A stretch of DNA of 64,000 nucleotides, taken from NCBI RefSeq assembly GCF_027595985.1, contig NC_073306.1, forward strand, positions 194,834,000 through 194,897,999, written 5' to 3'. The first letter of the stretch is position 1, and each line of letters starts with the position of its first letter. The notes below the pieces were generated by a model. It made no database searches. It had not been told where the DNA came from and saw only the letters and a list, made by a program, of their open reading frames with translations. This stretch comes from Sorex araneus. Lineage: Eukaryota > Chordata > Mammalia > Eulipotyphla > Soricidae. The translations under genes and the position numbers were made by a program. Of the stretch, positions 421 to 61,536 are shown in pieces.

Positions 421-633
421 AAATTTTCCTTGGTTTCTGAAGAATTCCCAGACTTCCAGAATTGAAAACAAATAAACAGACAAAATACTCTGATCCTCTT
501 TTTGAACTAATTTTTCTCTGTAAAATATATCACATAACTTGGTGACTTTTTAAAAGTATAAATACTAGCAGTCGAACTGTAAATTATTAAATTCAGAAAC
601 CTTGGGGGGGTTTTTTGGATTTTGTCTCCACAG

Positions 634-3600
634 CCCAGTGAAAGTCAAAGATTTGTCAGGGGACCACCTCCACCTCCTAGACCATTGCCGCCGCCTCCAA
701 ACTACCAGCCAAGAAGGGTTCCACCGGGACCAGTTCCATCACGTCCACTGCCACCTCCTGGTCCTCGAGCACGTGCTCCACCACCGCCGCGTCCTCTTGC
801 CCCTGTTGGTCCACCAAGACGTATTGCTCCTCCTCCTCCTCCTCCTGCCCCAAGTGGTCAACCAAGACGCATTGCTCCTCCTCCTCCTCCTCCTCCTCCT
901 CCTCCTCCTCCTCCTCCTGCCCCATTTCGTCCACCAAATCGAATTCCTCTTCCTCCTCCTCCTGCCCCATCTCGTCCACCAAATCGAATTCCTCTTCCTC
1001 CTCCTCCTGCCCCATCTCGTCCACCAAATCGAATTCCTCTTCCTCCTCCTCCTGCCCCTTTTGTTCCACCAAGACCTGTTCTTCCTCCTCCGCCCCCTCC
1101 TCCTCCTGCCCCTGTTGGTCCACCCAGACGAATTCCTCCTCCTTACCCATCAGGATATCGTCCTCCTCCTCCATACCCCGTTCGTGTTCCACCTAATTCA
1201 GGGAATCCTGTTAGACAACCACAGCCCGTCCCAGGTTATCCACCATTCCAACCATTTCCTTACCCTACAGGACCTATTAGGGTGCCTCAACCACCCTTTG
1301 TACATCCAGTTAGACCTCCATTACCTAATCCTAGACCCCCAATTCAACCAACCACCACCAAAACCACAGTCACTACCACTAAAAAACCAACCACCACAAC
1401 AAAAACCACCACCACCAAAACCACAGCCACTACCACTAAAAAACCAACCACCACAACAAAAACCACCACTAAAACCACAGCCACTACCACTAAAAAACCA
1501 ACCACCACAACAAAAACCACCACCAAAACCACAGCCACTACCACTAAAAAACCAACCACCACAACAAAAACAACCACCACTAAAACCACAGCCACTACCA
1601 CTAAAAAACCAACCACCACAACAAAAACAACCACCACCAAAACCACAGTCACTACCACTAAAAAACCAACCACCACAACAAAAACCACCACCAAAACCAC
1701 AGCCACTACCACTAAAAAACCAACCACCACAACAAAAACAACCACCACTAAAACCACAGCCACTACCACTAAAAAACCAACCACCACAACAAAAACAACC
1801 ACCACTAAAACCACAGCCACTACCACTAAAAAACCAACCACCACAACAAAAACCACCACCAAAACCACAGCCACTACCACTAAAAAACCAACCACCACAA
1901 CAAAAACAACCACCACTAAAACCACAGCCACTACCACTAAAAAACCAACCACCACAACAAAAACAACCACCACCAAATCCACAGTCACTACCACTAAACA
2001 ACCAACCACCACAACAAAAACAACCACCAAAACCACAGCCACTACCACTAAAAAACCAACCACCACAACAAAAACAACCACCACCAAAACCACAGTCACT
2101 ACCACTAAAAAACCAATCACCACAACAAAAACAACCACCACCTCCAGAAAACCCACAACCACAACTGCAACCACCACTACAACCACAACTGCAACCACTA
2201 CCACCACCTCTACAAAACCCATAACCAAAATTGCAACCACCACCACCACTTCCACAAAACCCACCACTACCAAAGCAACTACCACATCCACTAAACCAAC
2301 CACTACAGTAAAACCCACTGCCGTTGCAGAAATCACCACTTCCACAGAACCCACTACCACCACAGCAACCACCACTTCCCCTGAACCAACCACTACGGTT
2401 GAAATTACCACCACTTCTCCTGAAGCCACTACTACCACAGCAACCACCACTTCCCCTAAACCTACCACTACAGTAGAGGTCACCACCACTTCCCCAAAAC
2501 TCACCACTGCAGCAGAAACCAACACTGCTTCCACAGAACCCACTACTGCCCCAGAAACCACCACTTCCCCTAAACCCACCACTGCTTCCACAGAACCCAC
2601 TACCACCCCAAAAATCACCACTTCCCCTGAACCTACCACTACAGTAGAGGTCACCACCACTTCCCCTAAGCCCACCACTGCAGCAGAAACCACGACTGCT
2701 TCCACAGAACCCACTACTGCCCCAGAAACCACCACTTCCCCTAAACCCACCACTGCTTCCACAGAACCCACTACCACCCCAAAAATCACCACTTCCCCTG
2801 AACCCACCACTACAGTAGAGGTCACCACCAATTCCCCTAAACCCACCACTGCAGCAGAAATCACCACTGCTTCCACAAAACTCACTACTGCCCCCCAAAT
2901 CGCCACTTCCCCTGAACCCACCACTACAGTAGAGATCACCACCACTTCCGCTAAACCCACCACTACAGCAGTAACTACCACTGCTTCCACAGAACCCACT
3001 ACCACCCCAAAAATTACCACTTCCCCTGAACCCACCACTACAGTAGAGGTCACCACCACTTCCCCTAAACCCACCACTGCAGCAGAAACCACCACTGCTT
3101 CCACAGAACCCACTACCGCCCCAGAAACCACCACTTCCCCTAAACCCACCACTACATCAGTAACCACCACTGCTTCCACAGAACCCACTACCACCCCAAA
3201 AATTACCACTTCCCCTGAACCCACCACTACAGTAGAGGTCACCACCACTTCCCCTAAACCCACCACTGCAGCAGAAACCACCACTGCTTCCACAGAACCC
3301 ACTACCGCCCCAGAAACCACCACTTCCCCTAAACCCACCACTACAGCAGTAACCACCACTGCTTCCACAGAACCCACTACCACCCCAAAAATTACCACTT
3401 CCCCTGAACCCACCACTACAGTAGAGGTCACCACCACTTCCCCTAAACCCACCACTGCAGCAGAAACCACCACTGCTTCGATAAAACTCACTACTGCCCC
3501 CAAAATTGCCACTTCCCCTGAACCCACCACTACAGTAGAGATCACCACAACTTCCCCTAAACCCACCACTGCAGCAGTAACCACCACTGCTTCCACAGAA

Positions 3601-6309
3601 CCCACTACCACCCCAAAAATCACCACTTCTCCTGAACCCACCACTACAGTAGAGGTCACCACCACTTCCCCTAAACCCACCACTGCAGTAGTAACCACCA
3701 CTGCTTCCACAGAACCCACTACCACCCCAAAAATCACCACTTCTCCTGAACCCACCACTACAGTAGAGGTCACCACCACTTCCCCTAAACTCACCACTGC
3801 AGCAGAAACCACCACAGCTTCCACAGAACCCACTACCACCCCAGAAACCACCACTTCCCCTAAACCCACCACTACAGCAGTAACCACCACTGCTTCCACA
3901 GAACCCACTACCACCCCAAAAATTACCACTTCCCCTGAACCCACCACTACAGTAGAGGTCACCACCACTTCCCCTAAACCCACCACTGCAGCAGAAACCA
4001 CCACTGCTTCCACAGAACCCACTAACGCCCCAGAAACCACCACTTCCCCTAAACCCACCACTACAGCAGTAACGACCACTGCTTCCACAGAACCCACTAC
4101 CACCCCAAAAATTACCACTTCCCCTGAACCCACCACTACAGTAGAGGTCACCACCACTTCCCCTAAACCCACCACTGCAGCAGAAACCACCACTGCTTCC
4201 ACAGAACCCACTACCACCCCAAAAATTACCATTTCCCCTGAACCCACCACTACAGTAGAGGTCACCACCACTTCCCCTAAACCCACCACTGCAGCAGAAA
4301 CCACCACTGCTTCCACAGAACCCACTACCGCCCCAGAAACCACCACTTCCCCTAAACCCACCACTACAGCAGTAACGACCACTGCTTCCACAGAACCCAC
4401 TACCACCCCAAAAATTACCACTTCCCCTGAACCCACCACTACAGTAGAGGTCACCACCACTTCCCCTAAACCCACCACTGCAGCAGAAACCACCACTGCT
4501 TCCACAGAACCCACTACCGGCCCAGAAACCACCACTTCCCCTAAACCCACCACTATAGCAGTAACCACCACTGCTTCCACAGAACCCACTACCACCCCAA
4601 AAATTACCACTTCCCCTGAACCCACCACTACAGTAGAGGTCACCACCACTTCCCCTAAACCCACCACTGCAGCAGAAACCACCACTGCTTCCACAGAACC
4701 CACTACCACCCCAGAAACCACCACTTCCCCTAAACCCACCACTACAGCAGTAACCACCACTGCTTCCACAGAACCCACTACCACCCCAAAAATTACCACT
4801 TCCCCTGAACCCACCACTACAGTAGAGGTCACCACCACTTCCCCTAAACCCACCACTGCAGCAGAAACCACCACTGCTTCCACAGAACCCACTACCACCC
4901 CAAAAATTACCATTTCCCCTGAACCCACCACTACAGTAGAGGTCACCACCACTTCCCCTAAACCCACCACTGCAGCAGAAACCACCACTGCTTCCACAGA
5001 ACCCACTACCGCCCCAGAAACCACCACTTCCCCTAAACCCACCACTACAGCAGTAACGACCACTGCTTCCACAGAACCCACTACCACCCCAAAAATTACC
5101 ACTTCCCCTGAACCCACCACTACAGTAGAGGTCACCACCACTTCCCCTAAACCCACCACTGCAGCAGAAACCACCACTGCTTCCACAGAACCCACTACCG
5201 CCCCAGAAACCACCACTTCCCCTAAACCCACCACTACAGCAGTAACCACCACTGCTTCCACAGAACCCACTACCACCCCAAAAATTACCACTTCCCCTGA
5301 ACCCACCACTACAGTAGAGGTCACCACCACTTCCCCTAAACCCACCACTGCAGCAGAAACCACCACTGCTTCCACAGAACCCACTACCGCCCCAGAAACC
5401 ACCACTTCCCCTAAACCCACCACTACATCAGTAACCACCACTGCTTCCACAGAACCCACTACCACCCCAAAAATTACCACTTCCCCTGAACCCACCACTA
5501 CAGTAGAGGTCACCACCACTTCCCCTAAACCCACCACTGCAGCAGAAACCACCACTGCTTCCACAGAACCCACTACCGCCCCAGAAACCACCACTTCCCC
5601 TAAACCCACCACTACAGCAGTAACCACCACTGCTTCCACAGAACCCACTACCACCCCAAAAATTACCACTTCCCCTGAACCCACCACTACAGTAGAGGTC
5701 ACCACCACTTCCCCTAAACCCACCACTGCAGCAGAAACCACCACTGCTTCGACAAAACTCACTACTGCCCCCAAAATCGCCACTTCCCCTGAACCCACCA
5801 CTACAGTAGAGATCACCACAACTTCCCCTAAACCCACCACTGCAGCAGTAACCACCACTGCTTCCACAGAACCCACTACCACCCCAAAAATCACCACTTC
5901 TCCTGAACCCACCACTACAGTAGAGGTCACCACCACTTCCCCTAAACCCACCACTGCAGTAGTAACCACCACTGCTTCCACAGAACCCACTACCACCCCA
6001 AAAATCACCACTTCTCCTGAACCCACCACTACAGTAGAGATCACCACCACTTCCCCTAAACCCACCACTGCAGCAGTAACCACCACTGCTTCCACAGAAC
6101 CCACTACTTCCCCAGAAACCACCACCCCAGAAATCACCACCACTCCCACTGAACCCACCACCACAGCCACTACTCAAGCCACAACCAATTCTCCCTCTAC
6201 CACATTGCCCAGTACTACTTTGCAAACTACAACTACAACTACCATCCAAGCTACAACAAAATCATTTATTCAAAATATTTGGGATAAGATACGTTCTTGG
6301 TTTGGTTGA
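634..6309 (+). CDS. OPRPN: OPRPN (PROL1) main coding exon, expanded into a giant Thr-rich mucin (partial gene)
   Basis: This is the last coding exon of opiorphin prepropeptide/proline-rich lacrimal 1. The exon starts after a pyrimidine tract and AG at 632-633, giving PSESQRF, which matches human OPRPN just after its signal peptide. The signal-peptide exon lies outside the window. The exon encodes 1891 residues and stops at TGA 6307-6309. Domains in order: QRFVR peptide (646-660); a Pro-rich region to about 1350, including RQP..PGYP..GPIR..PPF as in human OPRPN; 14 Lys/Thr repeats of 18-19 residues; an irregular Thr-rich stretch; a long array of 63-residue Thr/Pro/Ser/Glu units; and a non-repetitive tail ending SFIQNIWDKIRSWFG, comparable to the human KSFWQKLFAIFG end. 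Human OPRPN is about 250 residues with only a short Thr-rich segment. The rodent ortholog is the submandibular mucin Muc10, which is a precedent. The array is open over 5 kb with no frameshift. It is probably a secreted, heavily O-glycosylated salivary or lacrimal mucin. The orthology is well supported; the mucin function is inferred. Confidence 0.92.
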   Translation, partial: PSESQRFVRGPPPPPRPLPPPPNYQPRRVPPGPVPSRPLPPPGPRARAPPPPRPLAPVGPPRRIAPPPPPPAPSGQPRRIAPPPPPPPPPPPPPPAPFRPPNRIPLPPPPAPSRPPNRIPLPPPPAPSRPPNRIPLPPPPAPFVPPRPVLPPPPPPPPAPVGPPRRIPPPYPSGYRPPPPYPVRVPPNSGNPVRQPQPVPGYPPFQPFPYPTGPIRVPQPPFVHPVRPPLPNPRPPIQPTTTKTTVTTTKKPTTTTKTTTTKTTATTTKKPTTTTKTTTKTTATTTKKPTTTTKTTTKTTATTTKKPTTTTKTTTTKTTATTTKKPTTTTKTTTTKTTVTTTKKPTTTTKTTTKTTATTTKKPTTTTKTTTTKTTATTTKKPTTTTKTTTTKTTATTTKKPTTTTKTTTKTTATTTKKPTTTTKTTTTKTTATTTKKPTTTTKTTTTKSTVTTTKQPTTTTKTTTKTTATTTKKPTTTTKTTTTKTTVTTTKKPITTTKTTTTSRKPTTTTATTTTTTTATTTTTSTKPITKIATTTTTSTKPTTTKATTTSTKPTTTVKPTAVAEITTSTEPTTTTATTTSPEPTTTVEITTTSPEATTTTATTTSPKPTTTVEVTTTSPKLTTAAETNTASTEPTTAPETTTSPKPTTASTEPTTTPKITTSPEPTTTVEVTTTSPKPTTAAETTTASTEPTTAPETTTSPKPTTASTEPTTTPKITTSPEPTTTVEVTTNSPKPTTAAEITTASTKLTTAPQIATSPEPTTTVEITTTSAKPTTTAVTTTASTEPTTTPKITTSPEPTTTVEVTTTSPKPTTAAETTTASTEPTTAPETTTSPKPTTTSVTTTASTEPTTTPKITTSPEPTTTVEVTTTSPKPTTAAETTTASTEPTTAPETTTSPKPTTTAVTTTASTEPTTTPKITTSPEPTTTVEVTTTSPKPTTAAETTTASIKLTTAPKIATSPEPTTTVEITTTSPKPTTAAVTTTASTEPTTTPKITTSPEPTTTVEVTTTSPKPTTAVVTTTASTEPTTTPKITTSPEPTTTVEVTTTSPKLTTAAETTTASTEPTTTPETTTSPKPTTTAVTTTASTEPTTTPKITTSPEPTTTVEVTTTSPKPTTAAETTTASTEPTNAPETTTSPKPTTTAVTTTASTEPTTTPKITTSPEPTTTVEVTTTSPKPTTAAETTTASTEPTTTPKITISPEPTTTVEVTTTSPKPTTAAETTTASTEPTTAPETTTSPKPTTTAVTTTASTEPTTTPKITTSPEPTTTVEVTTTSPKPTTAAETTTASTEPTTGPETTTSPKPTTIAVTTTASTEPTTTPKITTSPEPTTTVEVTTTSPKPTTAAETTTASTEPTTTPETTTSPKPTTTAVTTTASTEPTTTPKITTSPEPTTTVEVTTTSPKPTTAAETTTASTEPTTTPKITISPEPTTTVEVTTTSPKPTTAAETTTASTEPTTAPETTTSPKPTTTAVTTTASTEPTTTPKITTSPEPTTTVEVTTTSPKPTTAAETTTASTEPTTAPETTTSPKPTTTAVTTTASTEPTTTPKITTSPEPTTTVEVTTTSPKPTTAAETTTASTEPTTAPETTTSPKPTTTSVTTTASTEPTTTPKITTSPEPTTTVEVTTTSPKPTTAAETTTASTEPTTAPETTTSPKPTTTAVTTTASTEPTTTPKITTSPEPTTTVEVTTTSPKPTTAAETTTASTKLTTAPKIATSPEPTTTVEITTTSPKPTTAAVTTTASTEPTTTPKITTSPEPTTTVEVTTTSPKPTTAVVTTTASTEPTTTPKITTSPEPTTTVEITTTSPKPTTAAVTTTASTEPTTSPETTTPEITTTPTEPTTTATTQATTNSPSTTLPSTTLQTTTTTTIQATTKSFIQNIWDKIRSWFG
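646..660 (+). other. OPRPN: Opiorphin-like pentapeptide QRFVR at the mature N-terminus
   Basis: Codons CAA AGA TTT GTC AGG encode Gln-Arg-Phe-Val-Arg, followed by Gly. Human OPRPN has Gln-Arg-Phe-Ser-Arg (opiorphin, an inhibitor of neprilysin and aminopeptidase N) at the same place after PSES. The next human residue is Arg; here it is Gly. The first Gln, the Phe and both Arg are retained, and only position 4 differs. Release of a free peptide and its activity are inferences. Confidence 0.7.
829..1053 (+). repeat. Coding CCT microsatellite and three 45-bp Pro-rich repeats
   Basis: Within the OPRPN exon, two CCT runs (about 829-846 and 876-918) encode polyproline. Three adjacent 45-bp units starting at 919, 964 and 1009 each encode a 15-residue block of the form APSRPPNRIPLPPPP; the first has F instead of S. 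A fourth start at 1054 diverges. The units are nearly identical, indicating recent tandem duplication that keeps the frame. Confidence 0.85.
1381..2148 (+). repeat. Lys/Thr-rich mucin repeat array (14 units of 54 or 57 bp)
   Basis: Thirteen complete units plus a fourteenth diverging one. Each starts KKP (once KQP) followed by PTTTTK-type sequence, and they alternate between 18 and 19 residues depending on a TTT versus TTTT run. The 13 full units from 1381 to 2106 add up to exactly 242 codons. A typical 19-residue unit has 13 Thr and 4 Lys, so the segment would be both densely O-glycosylated and strongly cationic. Every length change is a whole codon. Confidence 0.9.
2440..6108 (+). repeat. 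63-residue (189-bp) Thr/Pro/Ser mucin repeat array
   Basis: The motif PTTTVE(V/I) recurs about 25 times. Full units are 189 bp apart, for example 'cagtagaggt' at 3041, 3230 and 3419. A complete unit has three related parts of about 21, 25 and 17 residues (ASTEPTTAPETTTSPKP, AVTTTASTEPTTTPKI and VEVTTTSPKPTTAAE). By my count a unit has 29 Thr, 10 Pro and 5 Ser in 63 residues. Several units lack one part. Rare variants recur as blocks: the PKITIS variant at about 4221 and 4902, and the KLTTAPKIATSPEP variant near 3483 and 5754. These point to larger duplications inside the array. All length changes keep the frame. Confidence 0.9.
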
Positions 6310-6412: not shown

Positions 6413-6418
6413 AATAAA
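6413..6418 (+). promoter_or_regulatory. OPRPN: OPRPN polyadenylation signal AATAAA
   Basis: A canonical AATAAA lies about 100 bp after the TGA stop and is followed by T-rich sequence (atgtctcttttcctg). A 3' UTR of roughly 120 nt fits this compact gene family. Confidence 0.6.
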
Positions 6419-8325: not shown

Positions 8326-8499
8326 CTAAAAATACTGTTTTTTTCATCAAGGATTTCTTACAGCTTTTACAGCTATTACATTCTTTTTCTGCACAAAGTA
8401 TTTCATGGAGGCAATTAATACCATTTGCTTATTAAGGCCTGTACTAGTTGCCAGACTAGGTTGGCCATCTGGAGGGATAATAAAAAAGAATAATAAGAC

Positions 8500-10165
8500 C
8501 CTGTGGCTCATATATCCCTTTTCACAATGCTCTACACAACCTCGATAGCCACATTCACCTGCCCACATACCAAATTCCACTGAATGGATATATCAATCCC
8601 ACCATTCTTTCTTCCGAAATCCGAAACGCCATTTCATCAGTAAAGAAGCGTACAGCACCCGGTCCAGACAAGTTCAGACCTGAACACCTGAAGAATCTGC
8701 CACCAGTACTCATCGATACACTGGCTCAGCTCTTCACATGCTACCTGTTTGAATGCAAGGTTCCTTCCCAATGGAAAACCAGCAGGACCATCCCTGTTGT
8801 ACAAGAAGGGAGATATCCACGACATCGGCAACTATCACCCAATCTGCCTATTGTCCGTCATCTACAAGTTATTCACTTCAGTCATCCTGAATAGGATTGG
8901 CAGAACACTAGATGAAGGACAAACATACAAGCAAGATGGGTTCCAAAAAGGATTCAGCACAATAGACCATATCCACATGGTGACCAAGCTCACTGAGGTT
9001 TCATGAGAGTTCAAGGTGCCGCTCTGTCTAATGTTTATTGATTTAAAGAAGGCCTTTGATTCTGTTGAGACTGAAGCTGACATCGAAGCCCTAGCCAAAC
9101 AGGGCATTCAAATTCAATACATCAGGATCCTCCATGAGCTGTATTACAGATTCACCACCAGGATCTCACCGTTCTCCAAGGAAGTGATCATCTACACAAA
9201 GAGAGGTGATCAGCAGGGCGATACCATTTCACTGAAACTCTTTAGTACCACCCTTGAGAACATCATACAATGACTGGAATGGGAAAAAATAGGAGCAAAG
9301 ATAGACAGTCAGCAACTACACCACCTCCGCTTTGCTGATGATATCGTTCTAATAACACCAAACAGTAGCCAAAAGGCACGAATGCTGGCCAACTTCGACC
9401 ACAAGTGTGGAAAGGTTGGACTGCAGCTGAATATCATGAAGACAATGTTCATGAGAAACGGACTAGTTCCTGATCTTCCACTTCCTATCAACAGAAAGAA
9501 CATCTCCGAATGCAGCAGTTATGTGTACCTAGGTCAAGAACACAGCATGACTTACAACCTGGCACCTGAGCTGCACAGGAGGAAGAGAGCGGCGTGGATC
9601 ACCTTTAAGAGCATCGAAGAAGTTAAGAGGAAGAAGAATCTCCAGCTCTGGGCATATCTTTTCGACTCCACCATTCTTTCTGCAGTAAATTATGCCTCAG
9701 AGACCTGGGCCCTACGAAAACAGGATAATAATGCTATTCAGATCTCCCAAAGAGGAATCAAAAGAGCTATGCTTGGAATATCACATTTCACTCAAGTGAG
9801 AGCAGCAATCTGGAGTTCCAACCTCCACCGACAATTGAGAATCAGGGATGCCGTCTCGGTTGCCAAGGCGTTGAAAATCAGATGGTTCTGGACATGTAAT
9901 GTTATTTGGAGATGACCACTGGACTAGAGCTGTTACCGACTGAATTTCACGGAATGTCAAAAGAATGCCTGGCCGCCCACCTAGGAGATGGTCAGACTTC
10001 TTCGTCAAGACCCTGAATGAACGGTTTGAGGTTCTTTGTGTTCCTCGAGCGAGCAGAAGCCATTGGGCTACACTAGCACACAACAGGGACTAATGGAGAT
10101 ATTACTGGCACCCACTCGAGCAAAACCAATGAGCAACGGGATGACAAGTTATACAAGTGATGTCA
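8500..10165 (+). pseudogene. Decayed RTE-clade LINE (reverse transcriptase to 3' end)
   Basis: The broken frame encodes, in order, an RTE-type polymerase region (APGPDKFRPEHLKNLPPVL), the NYHPICLLSVIYKLF fingers motif, a palm motif DLKKAFDSVE, GDQQGDTIS, the catalytic box FADDIVLI (FADD at 9331-9342), then SECSSYVYLG-type thumb sequence and the RKQD..AI..SQR C-terminal block typical of RTE elements. It is 5'-truncated. Breaks: a frameshift near 8795-8800, in-frame TGA at 9004 and 9271, and another frameshift near 9885. The 3' end (about 10088-10150) reads ATTACTGGCACCCACTCGAG then CAACGGGATGACA, the same tail found on SOR long-form SINEs in this window. Inactive copy; clade assignment is from motif recognition. 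Confidence 0.85.
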
Positions 10166-29389: not shown

Positions 29390-30200
29390 AGATGATAAAA
29401 TCATGTAATTAGTTGCAACTTAGATGTAACTGGAGGATATAATATTAAGTGAAATAAGTCAGGATAAATACCAGATGAACTCACTTATCAGTGGCATATA
29501 GAATAGCAGGACAAGGGAATGCAAGGTATTAGAGAGAGATGCTTAGGGTATACAAAACCCTAGATTATAGAAATGTATCGCTTGTATCACTTGTCATCCT
29601 TCGATTTGCTCGATCGAGCACCAGAGGCGTCTTCATTCATCCCTGTGCATGCTAGTGTAGCCCAATGGCATTTGCTCGATCCAGGAACACAAAGAGCCTC
29701 AAACCGTTCGTTCAGGGTTTTGAGGAAGAAGTCTGGCCATCTCATAGGTGGGCGGCCACACAGTCTTTTGACATCCCATGAAATCCACTTTGTAACAGCT
29801 CTAGTCCAGTGGTTGTCTCTAAATCGCATTACGTGTCCGGCCCATCTGACTTTCAATGTCATCGTTCTATAATCGTTAGGATTATCGAAATGAGGATGAG
29901 AGAAATGGAGGGTGAAATTAAGAGGTGGATGAAAGCTAACTGGGGCATGGCTCAGGGGCCTTGGACATGTCAGTGGTTGAGGCATATGTATATATCTAAA
30001 CCACGGAGCCTCTATAAGCATAAGACACACACTACAATAACCAAAGTTCAAAATGTACCTGTCAGGCAGACAGACTGGGGTAGTGGGAGGAAATCTGAGG
30101 ACATTGTTGGAGGGAAGTTTGCACTGGTGGTGGGGCTGGTGCTGGAAAGCACCGTGCAGAGTGTTTCAAATTGTCAATGTTATTCCACAACTTCATAAGG
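29390..30200 (+). mobile_element. Old L1-like 3' sequence split by an RTE insertion
   Basis: Left part 'aatattaagtgaaataagtc' with 'atcagtggcatatagaatag' (29.4-29.56 kb). The right part (29.89-30.2 kb) ends with a G-rich L1-like 3' UTR (ggaaatctgaggacattgtt). Diverged. Confidence 0.5.
29576..29879 (-). mobile_element. RTE LINE 3' fragment with TSD
   Basis: On the minus strand it translates as KVRWAGHVMRFRDNHWTRAV, then GRPPMRWPDFF and LNERFEALCVP: the C-terminal part of the same RTE family as 8.5-10.1 kb. Flanked by gattatagaaatg (29563-29575) and gattatcgaaatg (29880-29892), a 13-bp TSD with one mismatch. 5'-truncated. Confidence 0.82.
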
Positions 30201-34101: not shown

Positions 34102-34155
34102 ATGAAGACTCTTTCACTACTGGCATGCATCTGTGCACTGATTTCTTGCTTCTCA
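34102..34155 (+). CDS. MUC7: MUC7 coding exon 2: signal peptide
   Basis: Encodes MKTLSLLACICALISCFS, almost the same as the human MUC7 signal peptide (MKTLPLFVCICALSACFS). The exon starts after 'catttctcag' at 34086, giving a 15-nt 5' UTR stretch before ATG, and ends with a consensus donor TCA|GTAAGT in phase 0. The phase-0 junction after the signal peptide is the common design of SCPP genes. Joined to 38577-39107 it gives a 194-residue protein. Confidence 0.93.
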
Positions 34156-38576: not shown

Positions 38577-39107
38577 TTCTGTGAAGGTCACAGAAGACAC
38601 CCGGGGATGCATCACAGAGGTCATCATTACCATGGACCACCATTTCATCACAGACCACAAAACTACTTCCCTCCTGGTTATCCCAGATACCCACCACATT
38701 TTGGTTCAGGGATGGGAGTCATCATAATGCCAAAATTTCCTTTTCCACACAAATGTCCCCAAAAAAATAACACAGTGGTCAACAATAATACCCAAGAAAC
38801 TGCAACAGAAGCTCCACCTGCAAAAGCCACAACTCTCGGCGTTAATCCACCTCCAACCGAGGGTCAGAATGAAAATAAGGTCACTGAGGGCCCTACTGTA
38901 ACTCCAAAGGAGACCAGAGCTGTGCCAACTACAGTTTCTCCAACTTCATCTCCACCAGAGAGTACACCTGATACAGATAGCACATCTAGCCCTGCACCCC
39001 CAACCCAAGGTAGTACTTCAGCCCCTAAACAAGATAAGGCTTCTCAAATCCTGTCAGATCTAAATAAGTTGTGGCAACACATTATGGGTGTTCTGAAGGA
39101 GCAATAG
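38577..39107 (+). CDS. MUC7: MUC7 coding exon 3: His-rich head and short PTS region, no 23-residue repeats
   Basis: Starts FCEGHRRHPG after the acceptor and stops at TAG 39105-39107. Protein residues 19-194. The head is rich in His (10 in about 43 residues: HRRH, MHHRGHHYHG, FHH), as in the histatin-like N-terminal region of human MUC7. Cys20 and Cys78 are the cysteines of the mature part. Two NNT sequons follow Cys78, where human MUC7 also has Asn-x-Ser/Thr sites. A region of about 100 residues rich in Thr/Pro/Ser follows (TEAPPAKATT, TVSPTSSPPESTPDT). The end SAPKQDKASQILSDLNKLW...KEQ matches the human end SAPGQNKISRFLLYMKNLL...VEQ. Human MUC7 is about 377 residues with six 23-residue Thr/Pro/Ala repeats; here the repeat domain is absent. 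Secreted, probably salivary. Orthology is supported at both ends and by gene order. Confidence 0.93.
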   Translation, partial: FCEGHRRHPGMHHRGHHYHGPPFHHRPQNYFPPGYPRYPPHFGSGMGVIIMPKFPFPHKCPQKNNTVVNNNTQETATEAPPAKATTLGVNPPPTEGQNENKVTEGPTVTPKETRAVPTTVSPTSSPPESTPDTDSTSSPAPPTQGSTSAPKQDKASQILSDLNKLWQHIMGVLKEQ

Positions 39108-59959: not shown

Positions 59960-60966
59960 ACTACTACAATAATTTGCATTCATGTGATACTTAACTTGGC
60001 ATCAGAATAAAAAGCTGAGGAAACACCTGGGAAGACAGTTTAATGTAATCTTTCAATTTTAAAAAACAAAAAAGTAAATATTTGCCTATGAATAAAATCA
60101 AGTAATGGGGCAGTTTTTGCCAGCACAGATACTTGAACACCTGCATCTATTAATGTATCTTAGTTCATCCTTTCTATACCATGAATCCTTATCAAATTAC
60201 AGAGTAAATATTTCACGTGTGTGCTGAGGAGAGGGGTGGGGCCTCATATATGCAAGGCATTAACTCCGACACACTAAACTATAACAGCTCCCCCAAAGTA
60301 CAGATTTTTAATCCAATTTTATAGATAAAGAAACTGAGGCTCAGAAAACTTAAGCAACTTAGATCCCAAGGTGCAAAAAAAAAAAAGAGTAGATTCAAAA
60401 TAAGAGTTATTTTTATATGCACTATAACAGTGTTTTAAATTTTTTCTTATGTTTTCACATGTTTTACATCCCTGTAAAGCATGCACTAATAGTTACACTT
60501 CCCATGTACCTAACACAGACACACACACACACATACAATTTTGATAAGATAACATTTATCTTTATTATTTAGATCACTGATTTTCAACCATTTTATTCCT
60601 GTGGATTGATGAAGATAGAAATAGTTCTCAGACCTCTAAGGCAGAAAGCGAAAATACTTTCATATTTTTTACTTTGTTTTTACCTCTGATACACTTGATA
60701 TGAACAAATTCTGCATTATTCCTTTCCCAGCGGTTGATTTTATTCGGTTTTTCCTCTCAGAGGGAAATGTTGCACTGCAAGAAGTTCCAATAGCGAAACC
60801 AGCAAGAGGTTTTGCTCAAAGAGGCATTTCCTGTCTTCTCTTTTCTCTGACTCTGCCCTCTTCATCCTGCTACCCCTCCCCCCAAACCGTTGCCCTCCAA
60901 GATGACATGCTACCAGCTTTACAATGTGTTCCTCTGTCTCGTTTTCTCTTTCCTTCCTCACTGCAG

Positions 60967-61231
60967 CCAGTGGCCTCACCCCTGTTGACAGGCCTGGTCT
61001 TCCAACCCTTACTCCAGGGAGCAATCCTACCCAACAGTCAGATAAATCCAGACTTGCATAACAGAATACTTCCAGCTGGACAAGCAAAACCCAACCCTGC
61101 CCTCCATGGAACCCCAGAGGGTCCCCTCCCAACGCCAAGCGGCATAGATGATGACTTTGTGGTGACAACTCCTGCTGGCATCCCAAGAGGTTTGCATCTT
61201 CCTGAGGAAACCACCACAGAGTCTCCAGAAG
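60967..61231 (+). CDS. AMTN: AMTN coding exon 8 (largest)
   Basis: 88 codons plus one base, phase 1. Matches human through GAILPNSQINPDL, ILPAGQ, LHGTPEGPLPTPSGIDDDFV, VTTPAGIPR and EETTTES; human has GILPTSQAGANPD, SLPAGG, TQGTPAGRLPTPSGTDDDFA, VTTPAGIQR and EEATTES. Acceptor cctcactgcag, donor GAAG|GTAAGT. The upstream open frame (from 60700) is intron and not coding. Confidence 0.95.
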
Positions 61232-61536
61232 GTAAGTTCTCTGAGGGCGGAAAGCACCCCTGAACCACGAAAGGCTTCACGGAGTAGGAGAGTTTTTTGC
61301 TCTTTCCACTTTCTAGTCTCGGCTGAGTCTCTGAATCTTTCTAACCTAAAGGGGCAAGAAGTCAACGGGCCTGAGAGCACACGATAGATGAACCCATTCT
61401 CTAGTTCCCTCTCTGCGAATTACAAATGTTGCAAAAATAAGCTCTCCAACTAATAAGCAGAGTAATCACTTAACATATGGAAATGTCTAGAAGTAAATTA
61501 TTGCAGAAATTGTTTGATATTGGTACTCTTGTTCCT

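Follow-up and report, generated by a model that had tools for sequence, protein, structure and literature searches.

Organisation of the locus

The window analysed here is a 64,000-nucleotide stretch of the Sorex araneus genome (contig NC_073306.1, 194834000-194897999), together with which the 50 kb upstream were examined; negative coordinates denote positions upstream of window position 1. The genes follow one another in the order SMR3-like gene, copy A, copy B, MUC7 and amelotin (AMTN), the last of these serving as a marker of synteny (Table 1). Copies A and B are tandem copies of a gene that is best read as OPRPN (PROL1).

The terminal coding exon of copy B falls within a stop-to-stop open reading frame of 1,908 amino acids in the ORF listing (583-6309), and TTTGTCTCCACAG directly precedes its start at 634. 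An exon with OPRPN-like ends around a long in-frame Thr/Pro/Ser array had been predicted at this place, and such an exon is what we find: 1,891 codons are open, the head begins with PSESQRF and the chain finishes with the tail KSFIQNIWDKIRSWFG. Between these ends run 1,587 codons of repeats (1348-6108, ~4.76 kb in frame), within which Tandem Repeats Finder reported a lysine-rich 57/168-bp sub-array and a 114/189-bp sub-array. From the start of the array to the tail, Thr and Ser make up 56% of the residues, and Pro, Thr and Ser together 69%.

The candidate signal-peptide exon of copy B, MKTLIWAFSVLAILALFK, lies ~4 kb 5' of position 634, upstream of the window. With its donor AAG|GTAAAG it would splice in phase 0 onto PSESQRF at 634, and the product so predicted, signal peptide included, has 1,909 residues. 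The original prediction was to fall if no transcript joined a signal-peptide exon to 634; at the level of the sequence only, a fitting in-frame exon is present. The signal exon of copy A has the same donor, AAG|GTAAAG, and those of MUC7 and the SMR3-like gene match in length and phase. When the cluster genes were compared to find an upstream exon or promoter in common, the best matches looked like dispersed repeats; for this reason no 5' UTR exon was assigned.

A search of the genome (2.41 Gb in 65 contigs) with window positions 1141-1350 as the query returned two places, namely copies A and B. Copy A has the head and the tail of copy B, and its product would have 663 residues with the signal peptide. 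The original prediction pictured a single gene. Its giant exon stands, but it belongs to one of two tandem copies, the other of which had been missed because it lies outside the window.

Table 1. Positions of the genes and sequence features described in the text, in window coordinates
Feature	Position	Strand	Remarks
SMR3-like gene	signal exon -43070; exon -40744 to -40136		PROL5-SMR, E 9e-11
Duplicated block with copy A	~-30156 to -10098		head to tail with the next block
Candidate signal exon, copy A	-23670		18 codons, phase 0
Terminal exon, copy A	-19802 to -17865		645 codons
Duplicated block with copy B	~-10097 to 7221
Candidate signal exon, copy B	-3400 to -3347		18 codons, phase 0
Terminal coding exon, copy B	634..6309	+	open frame and AG acceptor; 1,891 codons plus stop
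Proline-rich head	634..1347	+	238 codons, ~51% Pro, 28 Arg; starts PSES-QRFVR
Thr/Lys sub-array	1348..2130	+	57-bp / 54-bp units, TTTTKTTT(T)KTTATTTKKP; net charge +55
Diverged middle stretch of array	2131..2420	+	72-88% best identity to rest, five 57-base windows
Thr/Pro/Ser/Glu sub-array	2421..6108	+	mostly 12-13-codon units inside 114/189-bp higher-order units; net charge -46
C-terminal unique part	6109..6306	+	66 codons
Amphipathic tail, end of C-terminal unique part	6259-6306	+	KSFIQNIWDKIRSWFG
AATAAA polyadenylation signal	6413..6418	+	~100 bases 3' of stop; one likewise after copy A
MUC7 signal-peptide exon	34102..34155	+	18 codons, phase 0
MUC7 terminal exon	38577..39107	+	without tandem repeats
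ORF holding AMTN exon	60640..61263	+	Pfam PF15757, E 1e-31
Second gene pair, expanded member	signal-exon candidate -60430; exon -54444 to -53809		18-codon signal-exon candidate; exon of 212 residues
Second gene pair, unexpanded sister	~-73.6 kb		95 residues

Identity of the duplicated gene

OPRPN is the best-supported reading of the two copies, judged by where they lie, how their exons are laid out and the short motifs at their ends. Both sit between the SMR3-like gene and MUC7, and both show, by predicted splicing, the OPRPN layout of a short phase-0 signal exon and one large terminal exon. Human OPRPN likewise has SMR3 on one side and MUC7 on the other within the secretory calcium-binding phosphoprotein (SCPP) cluster, and we take the PSES-QRF start and the KSF...FG tail to agree with the human protein. 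Human OPRPN has ~250 residues. In both copies the pentapeptide QRFVR stands after PSES at the start of the terminal exon, the next residue being Gly. Opiorphin is QRFSR and sialorphin QHNPR (PMC5681609, excerpt); QRFVR occupies the same place as opiorphin in the human protein, with a different residue at position 4.

The copies might instead stem from a different gene of the SMR/MUC7 group, such as an SMR-derived one, that has come to lie at the OPRPN position. The Pfam profile search matched no family to the copy B exon or its head, and when signal peptide and head together (256 residues) were searched against a protein database, none of the 8,000 candidates scored was a homologue at E <= 1e-5. 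In addition, the neighbouring SMR3-like gene shares the layout, with 39-bp proline-rich repeats in its head, then a Thr/Ser-rich stretch and the tail KKGFFEKVVSAIG. We nevertheless regard such an origin as quite unlikely, since the position beside MUC7, the PSESQRF start and the KSF...FG tail fit OPRPN. The layout of the SMR3-like gene may be close to what OPRPN looked like prior to its expansion. The conversion of OPRPN to a giant mucin by repeat expansion, as originally put forward, remains the best-supported reading, as a prediction drawn from the sequence and with neither a Pfam nor a database homologue beside it.

Coding status of the array

The coding frame has no stop over the 1,586 array codons examined (1346-6106). 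One reverse frame is open to the same extent, and the remaining four contain 47, 84, 214 and 2 stops. Because the array is stop-free in two of the six frames, its openness is weak evidence for coding, and we dropped it as a proof. Stronger support comes from the matching signal exon, the second intact copy and the length differences between the exons. Aligned to copy B, the copy A exon lacks 42, 393, 1449, 945, 870 and 39 bases, all six of them multiples of three in an alignment that depends on the gap costs chosen; the first of these gaps falls in the head.

Coding constraint was assessed within and between the copies. We counted 41 distinct unit changes within the copy B array, of which 18 are synonymous where 12.7 would be expected (p = 0.089; 144 array tokens, with 17 of the class 'other' left out), and the same test gave p = 0.24 to 1 in the other five frames. 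Between copies A and B we counted 16 synonymous and 23 nonsynonymous differences (pN/pS 0.60, p = 0.11). The head accounts for 4 synonymous and 5 nonsynonymous differences (pN/pS ~0.5); the C-terminal unique part, with 1 and 3 (pN/pS ~1), gives no sign of constraint. In the signal exons, 3 of the 54 bases are different, and two residues are changed. Over the aligned exons, 39 of 1,938 bases differ (2.0%), which is above the 0.6-1.1% of the 5' noncoding sequence, with the caveat that aligned array units need not be true counterparts. Neither test is significant, and they do not demonstrate strong purifying selection in the array; taken together, the values hint at most weakly at coding constraint.

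These values bear on the possibility that the array is a non-functional minisatellite in an OPRPN copy that is decaying or not transcribed, and that its frame is open simply for want of a stop codon in the unit. The equally open reverse frame, the non-significant selection tests and an exon divergence that is not below that of the 5' noncoding sequence are all compatible with decay, the more so as the evidence for the gene is sequence evidence. Decay would, however, leave unexplained why the signal exon, splice sites, head, tail and polyadenylation signal are intact in both copies. It would also have to account for six of six exon gaps being multiples of three, whereas in four noncoding stretches (~10 kb in total) 10 of 13 indels, of 1-9 bp, are not. 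We consider a non-functional minisatellite very unlikely.

Duplication and the history of the arrays

The two copies lie in duplicated blocks arranged head to tail. In four noncoding stretches 5' of the exon, the copies differ by 0.58%, 1.00%, 1.06% and 1.13%; 3' of the exon the divergence is 2.4-3.0% over the first 0.7 kb and 0.9% over a further 213 bases. Gene conversion or chance may explain this unevenness along -30156 to 7221. Since the duplication, copy A has acquired a LINE-like insertion (~5.9 kb) and a second one, ~0.94 kb long, that carries a 25-bp minisatellite; copy B has acquired one SINE and one A-rich element. Target-site duplications are visible for three of these four insertions. 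The minisatellite insertion (-11075 to -10135), with an apparent target-site duplication, is possibly a composite retroelement, and the SINE within copy B resembles what we take to be the shrew SOR family.

An assembly artefact, either a wrong array length or two haplotypes set side by side as copies, is highly improbable: arrays are difficult to assemble and a divergence of 0.6-1.1% is within the possible allelic range, but the 50 kb upstream contain no N, the head-to-tail junction is clean, the 0.7 kb directly 3' of the exon are more diverged than that (the further 213 bases are not), and four insertions between the copies over ~13 kb in our judgement exceed allelic expectation, side-by-side alleles being unlikely because the insertions are copy-specific and mostly bear target-site duplications.

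The arrays of the two copies differ 4.5-fold in length, with 355 codons in copy A and 1,587 in copy B. The diverged middle stretch of the copy B array is absent from copy A. Its best identity to the rest of the array is 72-88%, compared to 98-100% for a control stretch, and it most simply predates the duplication; copy A therefore shrank. Growth of the long copy alone is ruled out by the same missing stretch. Copy B also grew by blocks, because it contains identical 505-base blocks (2977-3481 and 5248-5752) and 900-base windows ~99% alike at offsets of 681 and 2271. Through loss in copy A and gain in copy B, both arrays derive from one ancestor within the time since the duplication. The simple history of repeat growth first proposed gives way to one in which the gene was duplicated, one array shrank and the other gained blocks.

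Predicted product and mucin class

We think it likely that the coding sequence of one of two tandem OPRPN copies ends with this exon, and that the Thr/Ser segment of the gene was amplified into a mucin array. Copy B has the tandem repeats rich in Thr and Ser, with Pro, that are typical of mucins, and a mucin composition threshold of our own choice (Ser+Thr >=25 and Pro >=5 per 100 residues) is reached in 1,620 of 1,789 windows. The 55 Lys of the first sub-array are, in our judgement, unusual for a mucin domain and count against the mucin reading. The mature chain has no Cys in copy B and one in copy A. Pfam recognised in the exon neither a domain of the gel-forming mucins (VWD or cystine-knot, as in the MUC2/5AC/5B/6/19 type) nor a SEA domain of the membrane mucins, and the exon ends in a polar amphipathic tail of 16 residues. 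The lack of Cys and of a recognised domain therefore predicts a soluble, monomeric protein that is neither a gel-forming nor a membrane mucin. The hydrophobic moment of the tail is equalled by 3.7% of shuffles in copy B and 3.0% in copy A, compared to 0.7% for the MUC7 tail and 42% for the SMR3-like tail; the amphipathic character of the two OPRPN tails is suggestive only.

We infer the splicing, expression, glycosylation and function of the giant mucin as follows. The product would be a secreted, cysteine-free glycoprotein in which a basic proline-rich head is followed by a basic Thr/Lys array, an acidic Thr/Ser/Pro/Glu array and a short amphipathic tail. Salivary (or tear) gland cells would secrete it. 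Dense O-glycosylation of its ~800 Thr and 110 Ser would stiffen the array into a bottle-brush that may lubricate and may bind water and microbes, soluble and non-gel-forming like MUC7 and rodent Muc10. The basic head and the amphipathic tail might anchor the protein to surfaces or to other salivary proteins.

The repeat array of rodent Muc10, which had been named as a precedent, presumably arose independently of the one described here. By name (Prol1/Muc10) the mouse gene is the same gene, it functions as a salivary mucin, and in the mouse submandibular gland its mRNA is the highest among 18 mucin genes measured (PMC7815129, excerpt). The difference is that here the gene is duplicated, with one copy reaching 1.9 thousand residues. 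Recurrent conversion of genes for proline-rich proteins to mucins by repeat gain has been described (Pajic et al. 2022, as summarised in an excerpt of the review PMC12776774). The 'new mucin' of the original prediction is an instance of this mucinization rather than a new process. Like the described cases (PMC12776774, excerpt), it has a proline-rich secreted precursor, in-frame exonic Thr/Ser-rich repeats and a salivary context. Unlike them, it probably had a Thr/Ser segment already beside the proline-rich head, as the SMR3-like neighbour has, and this segment was then amplified, and tandem duplication came later. A literature search on OPRPN in shrew found no paper, and the titles and opening lines of abstracts among the matches listed for Sorex araneus mucins included none on this gene, which may already be catalogued in Pajic et al. 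2022.

MUC7 beside the expanded gene

MUC7, recognised by its position, His-rich head and exon layout, is intact here, with 194 residues and no tandem repeats. Its match to the PROL5-SMR profile (21.9 bits) is under the cut-off of 25.3, and a search of PDB sequences gave one chance-level match. Half of the MUC7 windows (39 of 77) still pass the Thr/Ser/Pro threshold. In the excerpt available of Xu et al. 2016 (PMC4997351), the shrew is among the mammals without PTS repeats in MUC7, with loss, polymorphism or assembly error left open as the cause, and across mammals Thr/Ser is higher in MUC7 than in the adjacent PROL1. The relation is reversed here, Thr/Ser being 17.5% in MUC7 and 49% in the adjacent OPRPN. 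MUC7 resembles the neighbouring copy B in its signal exon of 18 codons in phase 0, its large terminal exon and its amphipathic tail; it is a secreted, non-gel-forming mucin, as copy B is predicted to be, with likewise predicted monomeric behaviour. It differs in having a His-rich rather than proline-rich head and no tandem repeats.

The idea that OPRPN took over the role of soluble salivary mucin from MUC7 is appealing but hypothetical. The broader scenario, in which that role was handed over to the duplicated OPRPN at a locus that repeatedly makes mucins, a second gene pair 54-74 kb upstream following the same course, and the giant protein still carries an opiorphin-like QRFVR, we hold to be tentative and rather unlikely. 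If true, one giant protein would unite a mucin with a potential peptidase-inhibitor carrier. The locus is a compact natural experiment on how mucins arise, as it combines a long and a short young mucin copy, mostly ~1% apart in their noncoding sequence, with a MUC7 without repeats and a second gene pair of which one member has an array and the other none. The pace at which arrays lengthen and shorten, and whether one salivary mucin replaces another, would emerge from comparing the locus between shrew species and between individuals.

Other expanded genes and retroelements in the region

Upstream lies a second gene pair. The exon of its expanded member contains ~8 units of a 45-bp Thr-rich repeat. 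The unexpanded sister has the same ends and no array, and a scan of 40 kb, some of it N, turned up no signal exon for this gene. Neither member is above a Pfam family cut-off. Gain of Thr-rich repeats has thus affected at least two genes of the cluster, and in each case the neighbouring sister is shorter or unexpanded.

Two retroelement ORF fragments are present in the window, at 8484-9915 (+) and 29587-30165 (-). Matches to RVT_1 occur only in the first, at 29.2 and 25.0 bits, below the cut-off of 29.6. The fragments look like what we take to be RTE1_Sar. This element is shared with nematodes and, among the mammals examined, occurs only in Sorex araneus (Dunemann and Wasmuth 2019, PMC6542046, excerpt).
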